Source of the DNA: a virus
Virus record (IMG/VR): IMGVR_UViG_3300021131_000061
Location: 1 to 21,330 of that record
Length of the DNA: 21,330 bases
Reading direction: 5' to 3' (one strand)
The notes beneath the pieces are model-generated. The model ran no database searches and was not told the origin of the DNA. It worked only from the letters and a program-made list of their open reading frames with translations. A program made the position numbers and the translations under genes. Shown in pieces: positions 4,627 through 17,067 of this stretch (positions are counted from its first letter, which is position 1; each line of letters opens with the position of its first letter).

Positions 4627-5024
4627 ACGTCGATTCCCTTATTAGTTGCCCAGGCAATTAAAAATTCTATGAACTCGCTTGAGTCCTCTACCGTGAATTT
4701 GTGAGACTGTAGACCAAGCTGCACAATCCGTTCACCATCCAGGCTTGGCGCGACCTTGCCAATCTTGCGGCCAGTTTCATGCGCCCATTGGTCTATCAGC
4801 AGGCGTTTCCAATCGTCGGCTGTCCATGTTGACCCCGCAGTCGCCATTTGCTTGGCAATTTTCTCAATGATGGAGTGAAACATATCGTTTTGTTCGGTGC
4901 TACGCCTGCTTTGCTTTATTTCCAAACGCATTTTTTTGCCAAGCGCAAGCGATTCCTTGACCTTGGGCCATAAATCTTTCATAACCGTCGTGGCTTGAGT
5001 TGGGCTATACAGATGAACTATCAC
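4623..5024 (-). CDS. ninB: NinB-family recombination mediator
   Basis: 133 residues, close to the ~146 of lambda NinB (Orf). Recognisable segments are RLEIKQSRRSTEQNDMFHSI (33-52, matching the RSxxQN motif of the family), ADDWKRLLIDQW near 69-80 and EDSSEFIEFLIAWATNKGI at the C-terminus. Lambda Orf binds single-stranded DNA and assists Red recombination as a recombination mediator. Here the start is GTG at 5024: TGA lies immediately upstream in frame and AAGGA sits at good spacing. It overlaps the nuclease gene by 20 nt and ends in an ATGA junction. In this phage its likely partner is the ERF annealing protein at 7988. Confidence 0.9.
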   Translation of the reverse strand: MIVHLYSPTQATTVMKDLWPKVKESLALGKKMRLEIKQSRRSTEQNDMFHSIIEKIAKQMATAGSTWTADDWKRLLIDQWAHETGRKIGKVAPSLDGERIVQLGLQSHKFTVEDSSEFIEFLIAWATNKGIDV

Positions 5025-5298
5025 TCATCATCCTTATCAGGTTTTGCGCGGCTTCCACCGAGTCAACCAAGGCAACCGTCCCACCTTGCCAGCCCATCAG
5101 AAACGCGCTTTGCTTTTGGTTTAGCCCCTTTTTGCCGTAGGCGCTGGTTGGGTCTTTGACTTCAACTAGGGCCGTTTTCCCCGCATAGCCTACCAAGAGG
5201 TCTACCGGCAGCTTTAGAACGAATACAGAGGCTCCTGATGCCCTTAATGCGGCCACTATTTCGGCCTGATTCCCGTCAACTCTAGCGGCATGGCGCAC
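5005..5298 (-). CDS. Small PD-(D/E)XK nuclease, VRR-NUC/resolvase-like
   Basis: 97 residues with a compact restriction-type core: VFVLKLPVDLLVGYAGKTAL then VEVKDPTSAYGKKGLNQKQ, giving Asp33, Glu46 and Lys48 as the catalytic D...ExK. A conserved Gln follows the core (QKQSAF). Standalone nucleases of this size in phages are often annotated VRR-NUC or Holliday-junction-resolvase-like and act on branched DNA. The start is GTG at 5298, immediately adjacent to the TAA of the overprinted frame (TAAGTG). The first 17 nt overlap the methyltransferase 3' end. Adjacent to a methyltransferase it could be mistaken for a restriction partner, but the recombination neighbours favour a resolvase role. Confidence 0.82.
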   Translation of the reverse strand: MRHAARVDGNQAEIVAALRASGASVFVLKLPVDLLVGYAGKTALVEVKDPTSAYGKKGLNQKQSAFLMGWQGGTVALVDSVEAAQNLIRMMSDSSSV

Positions 5299-5998
5299 TT
5301 AAGATTCTCCAAGCTGTTGCTGCACACAAGGGAACTTGTCCATTTCCAATGGCTTTAAGTCTGTCCACCCTAGCGGCCACCCCATCAGCCATTCGTACAG
5401 GTTCGGGTTGATTGAATGAGGTATCCAGGTTCCATTCTCTTTTGCTATGCGCCTTCCATTTGCTCCGCCTGCATTGCCGCCGCCTTCTGAGGCTTTGGGA
5501 GTTGGCCACAATCCAGATTCTGTCTCTTTGATGGTTTGCTCCAACGTCCGCTGCTCCCAACACTCCCCATCTCGCATCAAACCCCATTGAGGCCAAGTCT
5601 CCGAGAACGGTTCCAAGTCCCCTAGAAGTGAGCATTGGGCTGTTCTCCACGAACACGAATCGGGGTCGTACTTCGCAAATGATGCGTGCCATTTCTCCCC
5701 ACATTCCTGAACGCTCTGCATCAATCCCTGCACCTTTTCCTGCTGCGCTGATGTCTTGGCATGGAAAACCTCCCGATACAACGTCAACAATTCCTCGCCA
5801 CGGATGTCCATCAAAGGTTTGTACGTCATCCCATATCGGGAAAGGCGGGAGAAGCCCGTCATTTTGTCGGGCGCACAATACGCTTGCTGGGTAAGGTTCC
5901 CATTCAACGGCACAGACTGTTCGCCATCCAAGGAGGTGTCCCCCAAGTATTCCTCCACCAGCGCCTGCGAAAAGAGCCAACTCATTTAACTGCTCCAT
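5282..5998 (-). CDS. dcm: C5 cytosine-specific DNA methyltransferase (phage Dcm type)
   Basis: 238 residues; transfers methyl from SAM to cytosine C5 in DNA. Motif I is FAGAGG (10-15), motif IV GGFPCQDIS with catalytic Cys80, motif VI VENSP (117-121), motif VIII QRDRIW (157-162) and motif X GNGQVP (218-223). The target-recognition region (~165-212) is much shorter than in host enzymes, giving a compact phage form. Likely roles are protection against host restriction and marking of phage DNA. ATG at 5998 lies inside the 3' end of the 58-residue gene and has only a weak upstream purine tract. The whole C-terminal 96% is also open in a second frame (5299-5985). Confidence 0.95.
   Translation of the reverse strand: MEQLNELALFAGAGGGILGGHLLGWRTVCAVEWEPYPASVLCARQNDGLLPPFPIWDDVQTFDGHPWRGIVDVVSGGFPCQDISAAGKGAGIDAERSGMWGEMARIICEVRPRFVFVENSPMLTSRGLGTVLGDLASMGFDARWGVLGAADVGANHQRDRIWIVANSQSLRRRRQCRRSKWKAHSKREWNLDTSFNQPEPVRMADGVAARVDRLKAIGNGQVPLCAATAWRILSAPCR
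5299..5985 (-). CDS. Overprinted frame inside the methyltransferase gene, 228 aa
   Basis: A second minus-strand frame lies wholly within the methyltransferase gene. It starts ATG at 5985 in an ATGA overlap with the 58-residue gene's stop, has GGAG seven bases upstream, and ends TAA directly against the nuclease's GTG. These junctions fit an operon gene better than those of the methyltransferase itself. The product is Trp-rich: MSWLFSQALVEEYLG, SCSWRTAQCSLLGD (110-123), SETWPQWGLMRDGECWE (128-144), SGLWPTPKASEGGG (157-170), NPNLYEWLMGWPLGWTDLK (193-211). I recall similar phage hypothetical proteins, unverified. It may instead be an artefact of methyltransferase codon patterns: motif X of the enzyme underlies the WLMGWPLGWTDLK segment. 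No function is assigned. Confidence 0.5.
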   Translation of the reverse strand: MSWLFSQALVEEYLGDTSLDGEQSVPLNGNLTQQAYCAPDKMTGFSRLSRYGMTYKPLMDIRGEELLTLYREVFHAKTSAQQEKVQGLMQSVQECGEKWHASFAKYDPDSCSWRTAQCSLLGDLEPFSETWPQWGLMRDGECWEQRTLEQTIKETESGLWPTPKASEGGGNAGGANGRRIAKENGTWIPHSINPNLYEWLMGWPLGWTDLKPLEMDKFPCVQQQLGES

Positions 5999-6158
5999 TT
6001 TTCATTTCTTTCAAAACATGGGCTTTGATGCCCTTGAACAAGTCGTCTTCATCCATGCGCTTGACTTCAGCCCATGCCCATTCTTTCCACTCGGGTAATC
6101 GGCAAAGGCGCACATATTCCGCAAAAGTTGCTTCACGGATTTTTTCAATGTCAAACAC
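5982..6158 (-). CDS. Small Trp-rich protein, 58 aa
   Basis: GTG at 6158 overlaps the end of the replication-type gene by eight bases, and the stop TGA (5982-5984) forms an ATGA with the overprinted frame. The product is MFDIEKIREATFAEYVRLCR, then LPEWKEWAWAEVKRMDEDD and LFKGIKAHVLKEMKNGAVK: one mixed-charge helical protein with three Trp and one Cys. I recall similar short proteins in phage replication operons but know no function. It lies between the replication-type protein and the methyltransferase, so a replication accessory role is a reasonable guess only. Too short for standard gene calling, yet tight packing on both sides supports it. Confidence 0.72.
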   Translation of the reverse strand: MFDIEKIREATFAEYVRLCRLPEWKEWAWAEVKRMDEDDLFKGIKAHVLKEMKNGAVK

Positions 6159-13361: not shown

Positions 13362-13904
13362 TTAGGCTTTCTGAATAAACGCCAGGGCGTAATAGGTTGG
13401 TAAATTTGTACCGACGCTTGAAGTCACCGAACTGGTGAATCCACCGGTGTTGCCGACTGAGTAGGTGTTACCCGCACCAACAACAAAGGAATCTTTGAGG
13501 TTAGGCGTGCCGTTTGTACCGTCGCAGAGATAGTAACCCGATGGGATTGACCCAATAGACCCCGACCACATGATGATTCCACCCGATGGTACGGCGCTGA
13601 CCGATGGGCTTGTTCCGATGATTCCATAAAGGTTATCGTAGGTTTGGATTGTGACATTGGCGCTAGTGGTAAGAACAAACTTGTAATTTGTGCCCGAGGT
13701 GAGCCATATCTCTTGTGGAGGCCGACCATCCGTTCCAAGCTGGATAGGGTTGGTGTTTGCAGTCGTGCCGGCCGATGTGGTGTAGGTTGTCGCAGGCGTA
13801 GTGCTACCCGCTACATAGGTGTAGATATACCCACCATTAAGCGGCTGGCCGGTCGTAGTGAAAAATTGAAACCCGTTACCGATGGGTGAAAGATTGACGC
13901 TCAT
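13362..13904 (-). CDS. Collar-type tail fibre protein, 180 aa
   Basis: Residues 4-28 (NLSPIGNGFQFFTTTGQPLN, GGYIYTYVAGS) and LGTDGRPPQEIWLTSGTNYKF (about 56-76) match the N-terminal virion-anchoring segment shared by many podovirus fibres. The C-terminal part has MWSGSIGSIPSGYYLCDGTN and TPNLKDSFVVGAG, the phage tail-collar motif. At 180 residues it is a short fibre, so receptor binding may reside elsewhere or in the C-terminal tip. It starts with ATG 13904 (ATGA with the ejection gene) and AAGG upstream. Confidence 0.85.
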   Translation of the reverse strand: MSVNLSPIGNGFQFFTTTGQPLNGGYIYTYVAGSTTPATTYTTSAGTTANTNPIQLGTDGRPPQEIWLTSGTNYKFVLTTSANVTIQTYDNLYGIIGTSPSVSAVPSGGIIMWSGSIGSIPSGYYLCDGTNGTPNLKDSFVVGAGNTYSVGNTGGFTSSVTSSVGTNLPTYYALAFIQKA

Positions 13905-15439
13905 TGTTGACCTTTAGAAAGTTGTGGAAGCAAATTCATCAATGCAGTTCCCGATGTTGGGCCAAGCGGAACATTAGACAATGCTTGACCAGCAACGCCA
14001 GCGCCGCGACCAAGACCATATGCAGCTTCACCAACCAATCGAGGGCTTTGAAATGGCAACATCCCAAGAGCCATAGGATTTGCTAAACGACTTGCTATAA
14101 GGGTTCCAATTCCACCAAGTGTCGCCAATCCACGCGGCATAGTAGATTGCATAGCCTGGCCTGACAAGGCATTGATAAATGGAACGCCGCCTTGGGCTTC
14201 TAGTTGTTTTGCCAAATCCAAACGCTGCCCGTAATTAGTGCTGACATTGTTTCTAGTCAAACTTTGAAGTTTACGCAATGCAGTATCAGCAGAAAAACTT
14301 TGCTTTAACGACAATGTTTTTTCCATTTCGCGGATTTGTTCGCTTGCATCAGCGTAATTTTTCATCACGTCGGCATACGTTGGCGCTTGGTCGTTAATTG
14401 TTTTTTTGACTTTGTTGTAAACCTGAGATGCGGTAGCTGCGGCGGTGCGCTCCTCGTAAGGTATAGGGTCAGCAATACCGCCTAATGTTTGTTTAAGCGC
14501 ATCAAAACCTTCCGGCGTGTGATATTCAGCGGGGTCTAGCGTTTTCCAATTATCAACGACATCTTTCATTTTTTGATACGTTTCGTATCCGCGTTGATTT
14601 TTGATTTGGCCTTTATATGTGCTTAATTTTTGAGCATCTGCCAATGCTTGGTCTACATCTGAAAAATCCAAAATACTCTTGTCGTTTGTAATGTCCATAA
14701 TGCCGCTACGGTATTGAGCATTTTTCTTTTGCTTGATGTTTTCAAGGCCTTGTTTTGCAGCATCTAATGCGTCTTGCATAGGTACTTGGCCGCGCAAGTT
14801 TTGCATGAACGTTTGGTCGCCTTCGAGCCCCGCTTTAAAAGCGTTTGTAACGGCTTCTTTGCCCACTCCGGTAGTCATGCCTAATCCCGAGGCGGTAAGG
14901 TCTCCAGCAGCCGCCCATGGGCGAACGCCCATCTTTCTTAAACCTCCCGATACCGGCGACGCAACGGTTGCCAAGTCCATAAGAACGCCAACAGGGTCAT
15001 TGGACAAAGCTGTTTTGAATCCTTGTTCGCTTCCGTATTTTTCTTTATACGAATCAATAAGTGAGTCGTAAGTTTGATTAGCGCGGGCTGTAGCTTCGGG
15101 GTTAGATGCTTGAGACAGCGCCCCTATAGTGCCTGGAAACGCCCTATTCAATGCACCGGCGGGTATGTCAATCAATCCCTGCGCGGTTTGCAACGGGTGC
15201 ATGATTGCGTGGCCAATTCCTTGCACTTGAGATGCCGCGCTTTTAGGAAAGTTCCGCATAGATGCCTGTAATGCATCTTGCCAAGATTGTGCCTCCTCAG
15301 GCGTTTTGGCCTGTTTCAGCATTTCCTCAATGTTGCCTTGTGCCCAAACATCAAGACCCGATGGCTGCGCCGTAGGCACAGAATTCAACAATTCGTTAAT
15401 GTCTACTTCTTGAGGTGCTGCATTAAGGTCTGCCATCAT
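13901..15439 (-). CDS. Ejection/internal virion protein candidate, 512 aa
   Basis: Starts ATG-ATG at 15439 with GGAGG upstream, in ATGA overlap with the preceding gene. The protein is Ala- and Gln-rich, mostly helical, with a conserved-looking middle (ALSNDPVGVLMDLATVASPV, VSNDPVGxLxDLA is familiar from phage internal proteins) and a glycine-rich C-terminal hydrophobic region (GLATLGGIGTLIASRLANPM, EAAYGLGRGAG). No enzyme motif. Its place between the other two long helical proteins and the fibre fits P22-type ejection proteins (gp7, gp20, gp16) that leave with the DNA and form a channel; the exact homologue is unclear. Confidence 0.7.
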   Translation of the reverse strand: MMADLNAAPQEVDINELLNSVPTAQPSGLDVWAQGNIEEMLKQAKTPEEAQSWQDALQASMRNFPKSAASQVQGIGHAIMHPLQTAQGLIDIPAGALNRAFPGTIGALSQASNPEATARANQTYDSLIDSYKEKYGSEQGFKTALSNDPVGVLMDLATVASPVSGGLRKMGVRPWAAAGDLTASGLGMTTGVGKEAVTNAFKAGLEGDQTFMQNLRGQVPMQDALDAAKQGLENIKQKKNAQYRSGIMDITNDKSILDFSDVDQALADAQKLSTYKGQIKNQRGYETYQKMKDVVDNWKTLDPAEYHTPEGFDALKQTLGGIADPIPYEERTAAATASQVYNKVKKTINDQAPTYADVMKNYADASEQIREMEKTLSLKQSFSADTALRKLQSLTRNNVSTNYGQRLDLAKQLEAQGGVPFINALSGQAMQSTMPRGLATLGGIGTLIASRLANPMALGMLPFQSPRLVGEAAYGLGRGAGVAGQALSNVPLGPTSGTALMNLLPQLSKGQQ

Positions 15440-17067
15440 TGACCTCCTTTTACAGTTTGTAGCAATTGCTGGCGTTTTTGCTCTAACGCTTGTCGTTCAT
15501 TAGCAGACAACGGGCCAATCAACTTACTAAATTCTTGTTTATCTCCAGCATCCAATTTAGCAGTTTTTCCTTCTCCAACAAGAGATATGTAGCGCATCAA
15601 TTTAGGAAACTGTGGGTCTGACGAAAATTTTGTAAAGTTTGTGGTGAAGTTGGACACTCCGCCATAATTTGGGTTTTGCGGGTTTTGTAGGTTTTGACCG
15701 TTGTTCACGATTCCGGTTGAGAACAACCGCTGCTGCTCTAGCCAATCGTTATCTTGGCGAACAATGTTCATCAACGCATCTTTGTTCATATTCAATGCGC
15801 CATAAGCGGCCTTTTTGCTTGCCGTATCAGCGTCTGAACGCGGCGTAAGATTCTGAACCCGCTGTCCAAGGTATTTAACCAATTCTTGCTGTTGGGCACT
15901 CAAATTAGCCAGGTTGGTTTTCCCAGCCAAATAATCCGTGACCGAGCCTGTATCAACATTGGGGTCTTTCAACAACTTCAGAATATTGGTGTTGATAGAC
16001 TGAATGGTTGGGATGTGTCCCAATTCGCTACGCGGGTTGTTAAATTGGTCTTGCGCGCCTGCAAATGCCGACTGCGTTGCAGCCACACGAGCGTTAAAAA
16101 CCGCAGGAGATTCATTTGCCCCTTGAGCCAATTGGCCGCCACCTCTCGCTGACTGTGTAGTCATTGCGCTTGCCGCAGGCATGGCAGGCGCAACCCCTTG
16201 TGTAGTAGGCATAGAGGGCGCACCACCTTGCACACTTGGCATGGCGGGCGGCATACCTGCGGGCGCTTGTCCTCCGCCGCCGCCAAGAATTTGAGGCGCT
16301 CCAGTAATTTGATTTGGAAACACTTGAGGGGACAATGTTGTCGACGTTTTTGCGCCGACTATTGTTCCTGGTGGCACGCCAGTTAGCGCCGAATTTCCTG
16401 CCGCCATAGGCGCAACATACCCACCCAAATTTACGTTTGTAGGCGCAGGATATTTGCTGTTTAGTGCGGTGATTAGTTGCTCGTTATTGCCTCGAATATA
16501 GTCAATCAAATGCGGTTTTAATGCTTCTCCATCAACATTAGGAATTTGATTAACTGCAAGCTGAACATCCTCAGGCTTGACGTTTGGCAAATTTTTCATG
16601 TGCGCTGTTACAGCGTCAACCACTTTTTGTCGAGTCAAGTTTTTATCATCTAACAACTCAAAGGCGCGGTTGGTTCCTTGTTGGGCAAACTTCAATGATG
16701 TGCCCAATTCTGCGCCGCGAGCCTCAGCAGCAGCTTGAGCCGCAGCACTTCCTGCTTTTGCAATGGTTGGCCCTTGCGTTGCTTCCGCTGTTGCCGTGTT
16801 AATTCCCGCTAATTTTGCTTCCGATGCAATTCGAGCCGCTAAATCGGGGTTGGTTGCAAGCAATTGGCGCAGTTGTTCTTGCTCTTGTTGCAGTTTCAAA
16901 GGGTTAATTGCTTGAGCCTGTTGTACATCAAGCTGCGCCTTTTGCAAGGCTAACGGATTTACCGCTTGCGCTTGCTTGTATTGCTGCGCGGATGAGGCAA
17001 GGTTCATCATGTCCGCGAGGGACGTTTGCGGCAAAGCGTTTTGATAATTAGTAAAGTAATCAGCCAT
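15436..17067 (-). CDS. Ejection/internal virion protein candidate, 543 aa
   Basis: MADYFTNYQNALPQTSLADM opens a long Gln/Ala-rich protein. Residues 27-72 carry two copies of an A-x-NPLALQKAQLDVQQAQ-type unit (QAVNPLALQK, QAINPLKLQQ), common in phage ejection proteins. A low-complexity stretch (about 265-310: GGGGGQAPAGMPPAMPSVQG, then repeats of MPTTQG/APSMP) separates N- and C-terminal helical parts. C-terminal segment includes KNLTPRSDADTASKKAAYGA. No catalytic motif seen. It belongs to the cluster of three DNA-ejection-type genes. Confidence 0.7.
   Translation of the reverse strand: MADYFTNYQNALPQTSLADMMNLASSAQQYKQAQAVNPLALQKAQLDVQQAQAINPLKLQQEQEQLRQLLATNPDLAARIASEAKLAGINTATAEATQGPTIAKAGSAAAQAAAEARGAELGTSLKFAQQGTNRAFELLDDKNLTRQKVVDAVTAHMKNLPNVKPEDVQLAVNQIPNVDGEALKPHLIDYIRGNNEQLITALNSKYPAPTNVNLGGYVAPMAAGNSALTGVPPGTIVGAKTSTTLSPQVFPNQITGAPQILGGGGGQAPAGMPPAMPSVQGGAPSMPTTQGVAPAMPAASAMTTQSARGGGQLAQGANESPAVFNARVAATQSAFAGAQDQFNNPRSELGHIPTIQSINTNILKLLKDPNVDTGSVTDYLAGKTNLANLSAQQQELVKYLGQRVQNLTPRSDADTASKKAAYGALNMNKDALMNIVRQDNDWLEQQRLFSTGIVNNGQNLQNPQNPNYGGVSNFTTNFTKFSSDPQFPKLMRYISLVGEGKTAKLDAGDKQEFSKLIGPLSANERQALEQKRQQLLQTVKGGQ

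Follow-up and report, generated by a model that had tools for sequence, protein, structure and literature searches.

A phage C5-cytosine methyltransferase gene overprinted along nearly its whole length by a second selected frame, the predicted source of its specificity subunit

Reading frames at the locus

The window, that is, the whole stretch of DNA analysed here, is a virus record of 21,330 bases; portal, terminase, NinB and lysis genes are among its contents. On its minus strand lies a C5-cytosine methyltransferase gene (alpha) that holds a second complete open reading frame (beta) in the +1 frame relative to alpha, so that beta covers 228 of the 238 alpha codons (Table 1). The coordinates, length and landmarks proposed for this frame in the earlier note were recovered exactly by ORF calling, and its junctions are as described there, including a GGAG seven bases 5' of the beta ATG. 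An in-frame TAA stands directly 5' of that ATG (TAA ATG). Judged by sequence, the ATGA overlap between the preceding 58-codon ORF and beta is likely to permit translational coupling. Elsewhere in the window, two long minus-strand ORFs between the tail and DNA-ejection genes (13901-15439, 512 aa; 15436-17067, 543 aa) have no PHROG match.

Table 1. Features of the overlapping locus, in coordinates of the window
Feature	Position	Strand	Description and basis
Second-frame ORF (beta)	5299..5985	minus	228 aa; ATG 5985-5983, TAA 5301-5299; probable target-recognition and motif-IX subunit; phrog_1008, E=1e-22
C5-cytosine methyltransferase frame (alpha)	5282..5998	minus	238 aa; motifs I-VIII and X, without target-recognition domain (TRD), without motif IX; phrog_363, E=4e-65
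Alpha motif IV, catalytic PCQ	5756..5764	minus	Sequence; invariant in the homologue alignment
Alpha motif VIII (DRIWIVAN)	5501..5524	minus	Final catalytic motif ahead of the variable region; sequence and alignment
Variable region	5413..5508	minus	Read by beta as WPTPKASEGGGN..., with a single PTP module that is the presumed TRD, and by alpha as a near-neutral linker
Beta motif-IX-like element INPNLYEWLMGWPLGWTDL	5356..5412	minus	Alignments; split relatives matched to canonical motif IX-X by hhalign
Alpha motif X (GNGQVP)	5330..5347	minus	Sequence and alignment
58-codon GTG ORF, 5' of beta	5982..6158	minus	Its TGA overlaps the beta ATG (ATGA); sequence, shorter than the 60-aa limit of the ORF list
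Nuclease-like ORF, 3' of beta	5005..5298	minus	Its GTG abuts the beta TAA; phrog_93 endonuclease, E=9e-8

Selection on the second frame

Stop codons were counted against expectations obtained by synonymous permutation. In the window alone, the second frame has 0 stops where 6.0 are expected (P about 2e-4), and the +2 frame, serving as control, has 13 against 11.4 expected. When synonymous codons were reshuffled within each gene of 119 unique related loci, 651 stops were expected in the +1 frame and none was present; the +2 frame of the same loci carries 1954 against 1616 expected. Second-frame stops in close homologues, which the earlier note regarded as evidence against dual coding, are thus absent from these loci, and the frame is also complete in all 80 of the best viral loci from a scan with the methyltransferase protein alone, which were chosen without reference to the second frame.

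The depletion reaches further. Sixty more distant relatives, spread over many bacterial phyla, have 22 stops against 190 expected in the +1 frame between about codon 60 and motif VIII (none in 49 of the 60), and 155 against 148 before about codon 60; second-frame starts in these relatives cluster at codons 45-65. A shorter nested beta is thus widespread, and the class found in the window extends beta upstream to the alpha start. Twenty canonical single-chain C5-methyltransferases, picked by profile, have 108 +1 stops for 119 expected, with no depletion. Profile matches to the second frame in distant methyltransferases carry no weight here, because shadow translations look alike; the stop counts and the canonical control took their place.

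At divergence below 0.15, the ratio of substitutions at third to first codon positions was 1.4-1.8 in the methyltransferase gene versus 3.4-4.6 in flanking genes, the latter reaching 4.4-4.6 on the same contigs at divergence below 0.1. In an OLGenie-style analysis, in which each change was classed by its effect in both frames, dNN/dNS for the second frame was 0.10-0.18 and dSN/dSS 0.27-0.31, compared with 0.83-1.56 and 0.95-1.21 in flanking-gene controls under the same treatment and 1.45-2.83 and 1.09-2.33 in the +2 frame of the methyltransferase gene; the pairwise counts are not phylogenetically independent, and the gap to the controls is wide and holds throughout. In the methyltransferase frame, synonymous change, the measure put forward in the earlier note, is strongly reduced. 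Within the variable region, alpha evolves nearly neutrally (dNN/dSN 0.62, dNS/dSS 0.75) and beta is under extreme constraint (dNN/dNS 0.08, dSN/dSS 0.09), so it is beta for which the DNA there is selected. By these comparisons the second frame is confirmed to be under protein-level selection, and the dual-coding gene suggested in the earlier note, supported by both the stop depletion and the reduced synonymous change, is almost certainly real.

The beta ATG arises from the Asn codon of the methyltransferase sequence NELALFAG. That codon is AAT in 118 of the 119 loci and CAT in the other one, both of which keep the beta ATG; AAT accounts for only 40% of the remaining Asn codons in those genes. 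In 25 of 25 further phage, prophage and plasmid matches that have the NEL start, this Asn codon is likewise AAT. Constraint on the second frame is present from its codons 1-50 (ratios 0.18 and 0.27), and beta begins 13 nt after the alpha start in the window and 4 nt after it in most relatives, where the alpha N-terminus is ATGAATGAG and the start codons are hence 4 nt apart. Retention of the ATG, early constraint and close spacing of the starts argue for independent initiation of beta and not for frameshifting.

Predicted roles of the two products

Alpha carries the C5-methyltransferase motifs I, IV (PCQ), VI (ENx), VIII and X (GNGQVP). Its match to Pfam PF00145 (E=3e-31) spans profile positions 5-169 of 324 only, corresponding to motifs I-VIII, and its match to M.HhaI ends at residue 167; accordingly, neither a TRD nor motif IX (RExxRLQGFP) is recognisable in this chain.

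In beta, a WPTPxAS module precedes NPNLYEWLMGWPLGWTDL, a stretch similar to motif IX (LTPREWARLQGFP). Compared directly with canonical motif IX, beta NPNLYEWLMGWPLGWT aligns at the right site without significance (E=0.09, probability 0.6%), so that the motif IX assignment rests on a chain through split relatives, in which TRD, IX and X occupy a separate ORF (Skipitt gp78/gp77, Samy gp49/gp50). The split betas matched canonical motif IX-X by hhalign with E=2e-5 and a probability of 77%. In Skipitt gp77, Samy gp50 and Pioneer gp84, the same motif-IX-like element is followed by motif X, and the split betas match the phrog_116 and phrog_363 methyltransferase profiles C-terminal to the catalytic part. 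Samy gp50 is related to phrog_1008, a family labelled 'DNA methyltransferase' that by profile match takes in both the window second frame and the split beta ORFs. The phrog_1008 family has neither the PCQ nor the ENV catalytic motif; it is probably a specificity subunit in its own right, a non-catalytic half hidden by its label. A PDB sequence search with beta gave a chance match only (E=1.5), and a distant viral scan with the second frame of a Stenotrophomonas phage found nothing.

We therefore predict, with a probability of about 0.8, that beta is the target-recognition (specificity) subunit of a split C5-methyltransferase. Frame 0 would supply the catalytic, AdoMet-binding large domain (motifs I-VIII and X), and the +1 frame, from its own ATG, the small-domain half with the target-recognition region and the motif-IX-like segment. 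Both subunits would be made from one mRNA through closely spaced or coupled starts and would assemble into one enzyme. Such an enzyme would methylate phage DNA and probably counter host restriction. The suggestion in the earlier note that the second-frame product might be a partner of the methyltransferase is in keeping with this prediction, now narrowed to a probable target-recognition and motif-IX subunit; its alternative, a regulator, found no support.

Three other explanations were weighed. That the open frame is an untranslated shadow, by chance or composition, of a conserved methyltransferase is very improbable: although profile matches confined to the +1 frame are untrustworthy for the most distant relatives, because shadows of conserved proteins look alike, the permutation and substitution tests rule out a chance open frame, and the stop counts, the dual-frame rates with matched controls, the start-codon retention and the clean canonical control all contradict a shadow. 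The second frame might instead be reached only by a +1 frameshift from the methyltransferase, as an extension of it, with motifs I-VIII followed by TRD and motif IX in a single-chain enzyme. The layout of some relatives would fit this, since at loci such as L200, L223, L235 and L250 frame 0 stops just past motif VIII and the +1 frame has the TRD, IX and X, and in Gordonia phage MelBins the PTP modules switch frame within the array. Frameshifting would, however, require neither early constraint nor ATG retention nor clustered starts, yet constraint begins at the first beta codon, 150 codons 5' of any useful shift site, the beta ATG is preserved by codon choice, and the +1 frame of distant relatives has almost no stops between about codon 60 and motif VIII, with starts clustered at codons 45-65. 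Translation of the second frame only past a shift site, as in programmed frameshifting, is not what the constraint and start retention from beta codon 1 indicate, and we regard frameshifting as improbable.

Somewhat less improbable, but still unlikely, is that the overlapping protein is real and has another role, such as regulation of the methyltransferase or an independent anti-defence activity. Beta has no Pfam, NCBIfam or PADLOC match, AlphaFold with 83 sequences gave no confident fold (pLDDT 53, pTM 0.19), and its N-terminal half (residues 1-95) has no counterpart in the split relatives, all of which leave room for such a role. Against it, the second frame sits over a methyltransferase in the collected loci, that methyltransferase is missing exactly the parts that beta seems to supply, and the homologous actinophage TRD-IX-X ORFs directly follow the catalytic half. 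A search of 259 loci for a beta free of a methyltransferase returned two candidates (L233 and L239), both of which proved to lie at or beside a methyltransferase gene.

Relatives, known systems and annotation

The full-length overlap was found in viral contigs, in Salmonella, Klebsiella, Pseudomonas, Vibrio, Acinetobacter and Microcystis phages, in prophages and E. coli genomes, and in a Pseudomonas aeruginosa plasmid record. An E. coli prophage (strain PT62; L260 1-529 and 2501-3238) carries two different methyltransferases, both with a nested +1 frame of the beta family, and in E. coli PCP07014 (L261 2501-3262) both frames are broken at one same place. In a spring-water podovirus (L176 2497-2832), the match is confined to beta residues 1-30, which are 87% identical in an ORF of 111 codons; this ORF is probably the remnant of a deletion.

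Where the window has a single PTP module, several beta relatives have 2-6 in tandem in their variable region. Tandem WPTPxAxD modules of about 25-45 aa were seen before motif IX at five loci (L200 2942-4438, L213, L161, L206 and L217), usually one or two and at most six, and may be stacked target-recognition modules. The methyltransferases of Arthrobacter phage MidnightRain (L301 328-1782) and Gordonia phage MelBins (L302 340-1827) are single ORFs with motif IX-X in frame 0; some or all of their PTP modules can be read in the +1 frame alone, and the frame switches inside the array. A bolder and tentative proposal, for which we would give somewhat worse than even odds, is that beta is a modular specificity subunit whose array of PTP modules, a single one in the window and as many as six in a Paraburkholderia prophage, is overprinted on the catalytic gene, every module being a target-recognition unit; methylation specificities could then be added or shed by the phage, with frame 0 reading the array as mere linker. 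The overlap on the catalytic core is common to relatives in many bacterial phyla.

M.EcoHK31I has its beta nested in alpha in an alternative frame, and the window locus is similar in that its predicted small subunit likewise overlaps the large-subunit gene in another frame. PMC3404938, citing Lee et al. 1995, describes M.EcoHK31I (YGGCCR) as a large polypeptide with motifs I-VIII and X and a small one with motif IX, both of which are needed, and places the predicted TRD in the large subunit. The window alpha likewise has motifs I-VIII and X without IX. Unlike M.EcoHK31I as described there, selection in the window points to a TRD in beta instead of alpha; the overlap takes in 228 of 238 codons, and beta starts 4-13 nt after the alpha start. 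The window gene is also a phage orphan and not part of a restriction-modification system. The best explanation of the sequence evidence is that the window locus is an almost fully overprinted two-frame C5-methyltransferase, of a split, two-frame arrangement already known from M.EcoHK31I.

M.AquI is a split C5-methyltransferase with catalytic motifs I-VIII on one polypeptide and the recognition region and motif IX on the other. The split actinophage relatives (Skipitt, Samy) match its layout, but in the window motif X lies in alpha and the genes are overprinted, not consecutive; a small subunit holding both IX and X, as in the M.AquI type, was seen in L262-L264 and not in the window, where X is in frame 0. 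Multispecific phage C5-methyltransferases of the M.SPRI type carry tandem TRDs in the frame of a single chain. The beta relatives with 2-6 tandem PTP modules, putative TRDs, resemble them, except that the modules are in beta and not in a single-chain frame. A hidden HNH endonuclease, the ShiLan domain, is encoded in mycobacteriophage methylases in a frame that belongs to a homing element of about 200 aa inserted there (PMC11855218). It shares with the window an out-of-frame protein within a phage methylase gene; the window frame, however, spans the methyltransferase core itself, and profile searches gave it no HNH match. We found no description of the present overlap in the open literature, to which the search was confined.

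Long same-strand overlapping genes have rarely been established in DNA phages, and the present case comes with selection statistics, clean controls and a large family. How one enzyme's catalytic and recognition halves came to lie on the same DNA becomes a testable question. The annotated gene, if expressed alone in a heterologous host, could be misread as an inactive enzyme.

The overlap also explains why annotation at one locus flips between 'methyltransferase' and 'hypothetical protein'. Among loci of the fully overlapping class, every public record inspected shows just one of the two frames, either the methyltransferase or the second frame as a 'hypothetical protein', and the earlier note was right that the standalone phage hypotheticals it mentioned may be the same out-of-frame reading, the second frame being called in place of the methyltransferase in such records. 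One Stenotrophomonas phage, whose overlap is shorter, has its 'DNA-cytosine methyltransferase' CDS in the second frame. In Mycobacterium phage Llama (L166 2432-3191), a methyltransferase split by a frameshift is annotated as two methylases. In a Pseudomonas aeruginosa plasmid/phage record (L303 2075-2761), the 'hypothetical protein' is the second frame, and the overlapping methyltransferase is absent from the gene table used.
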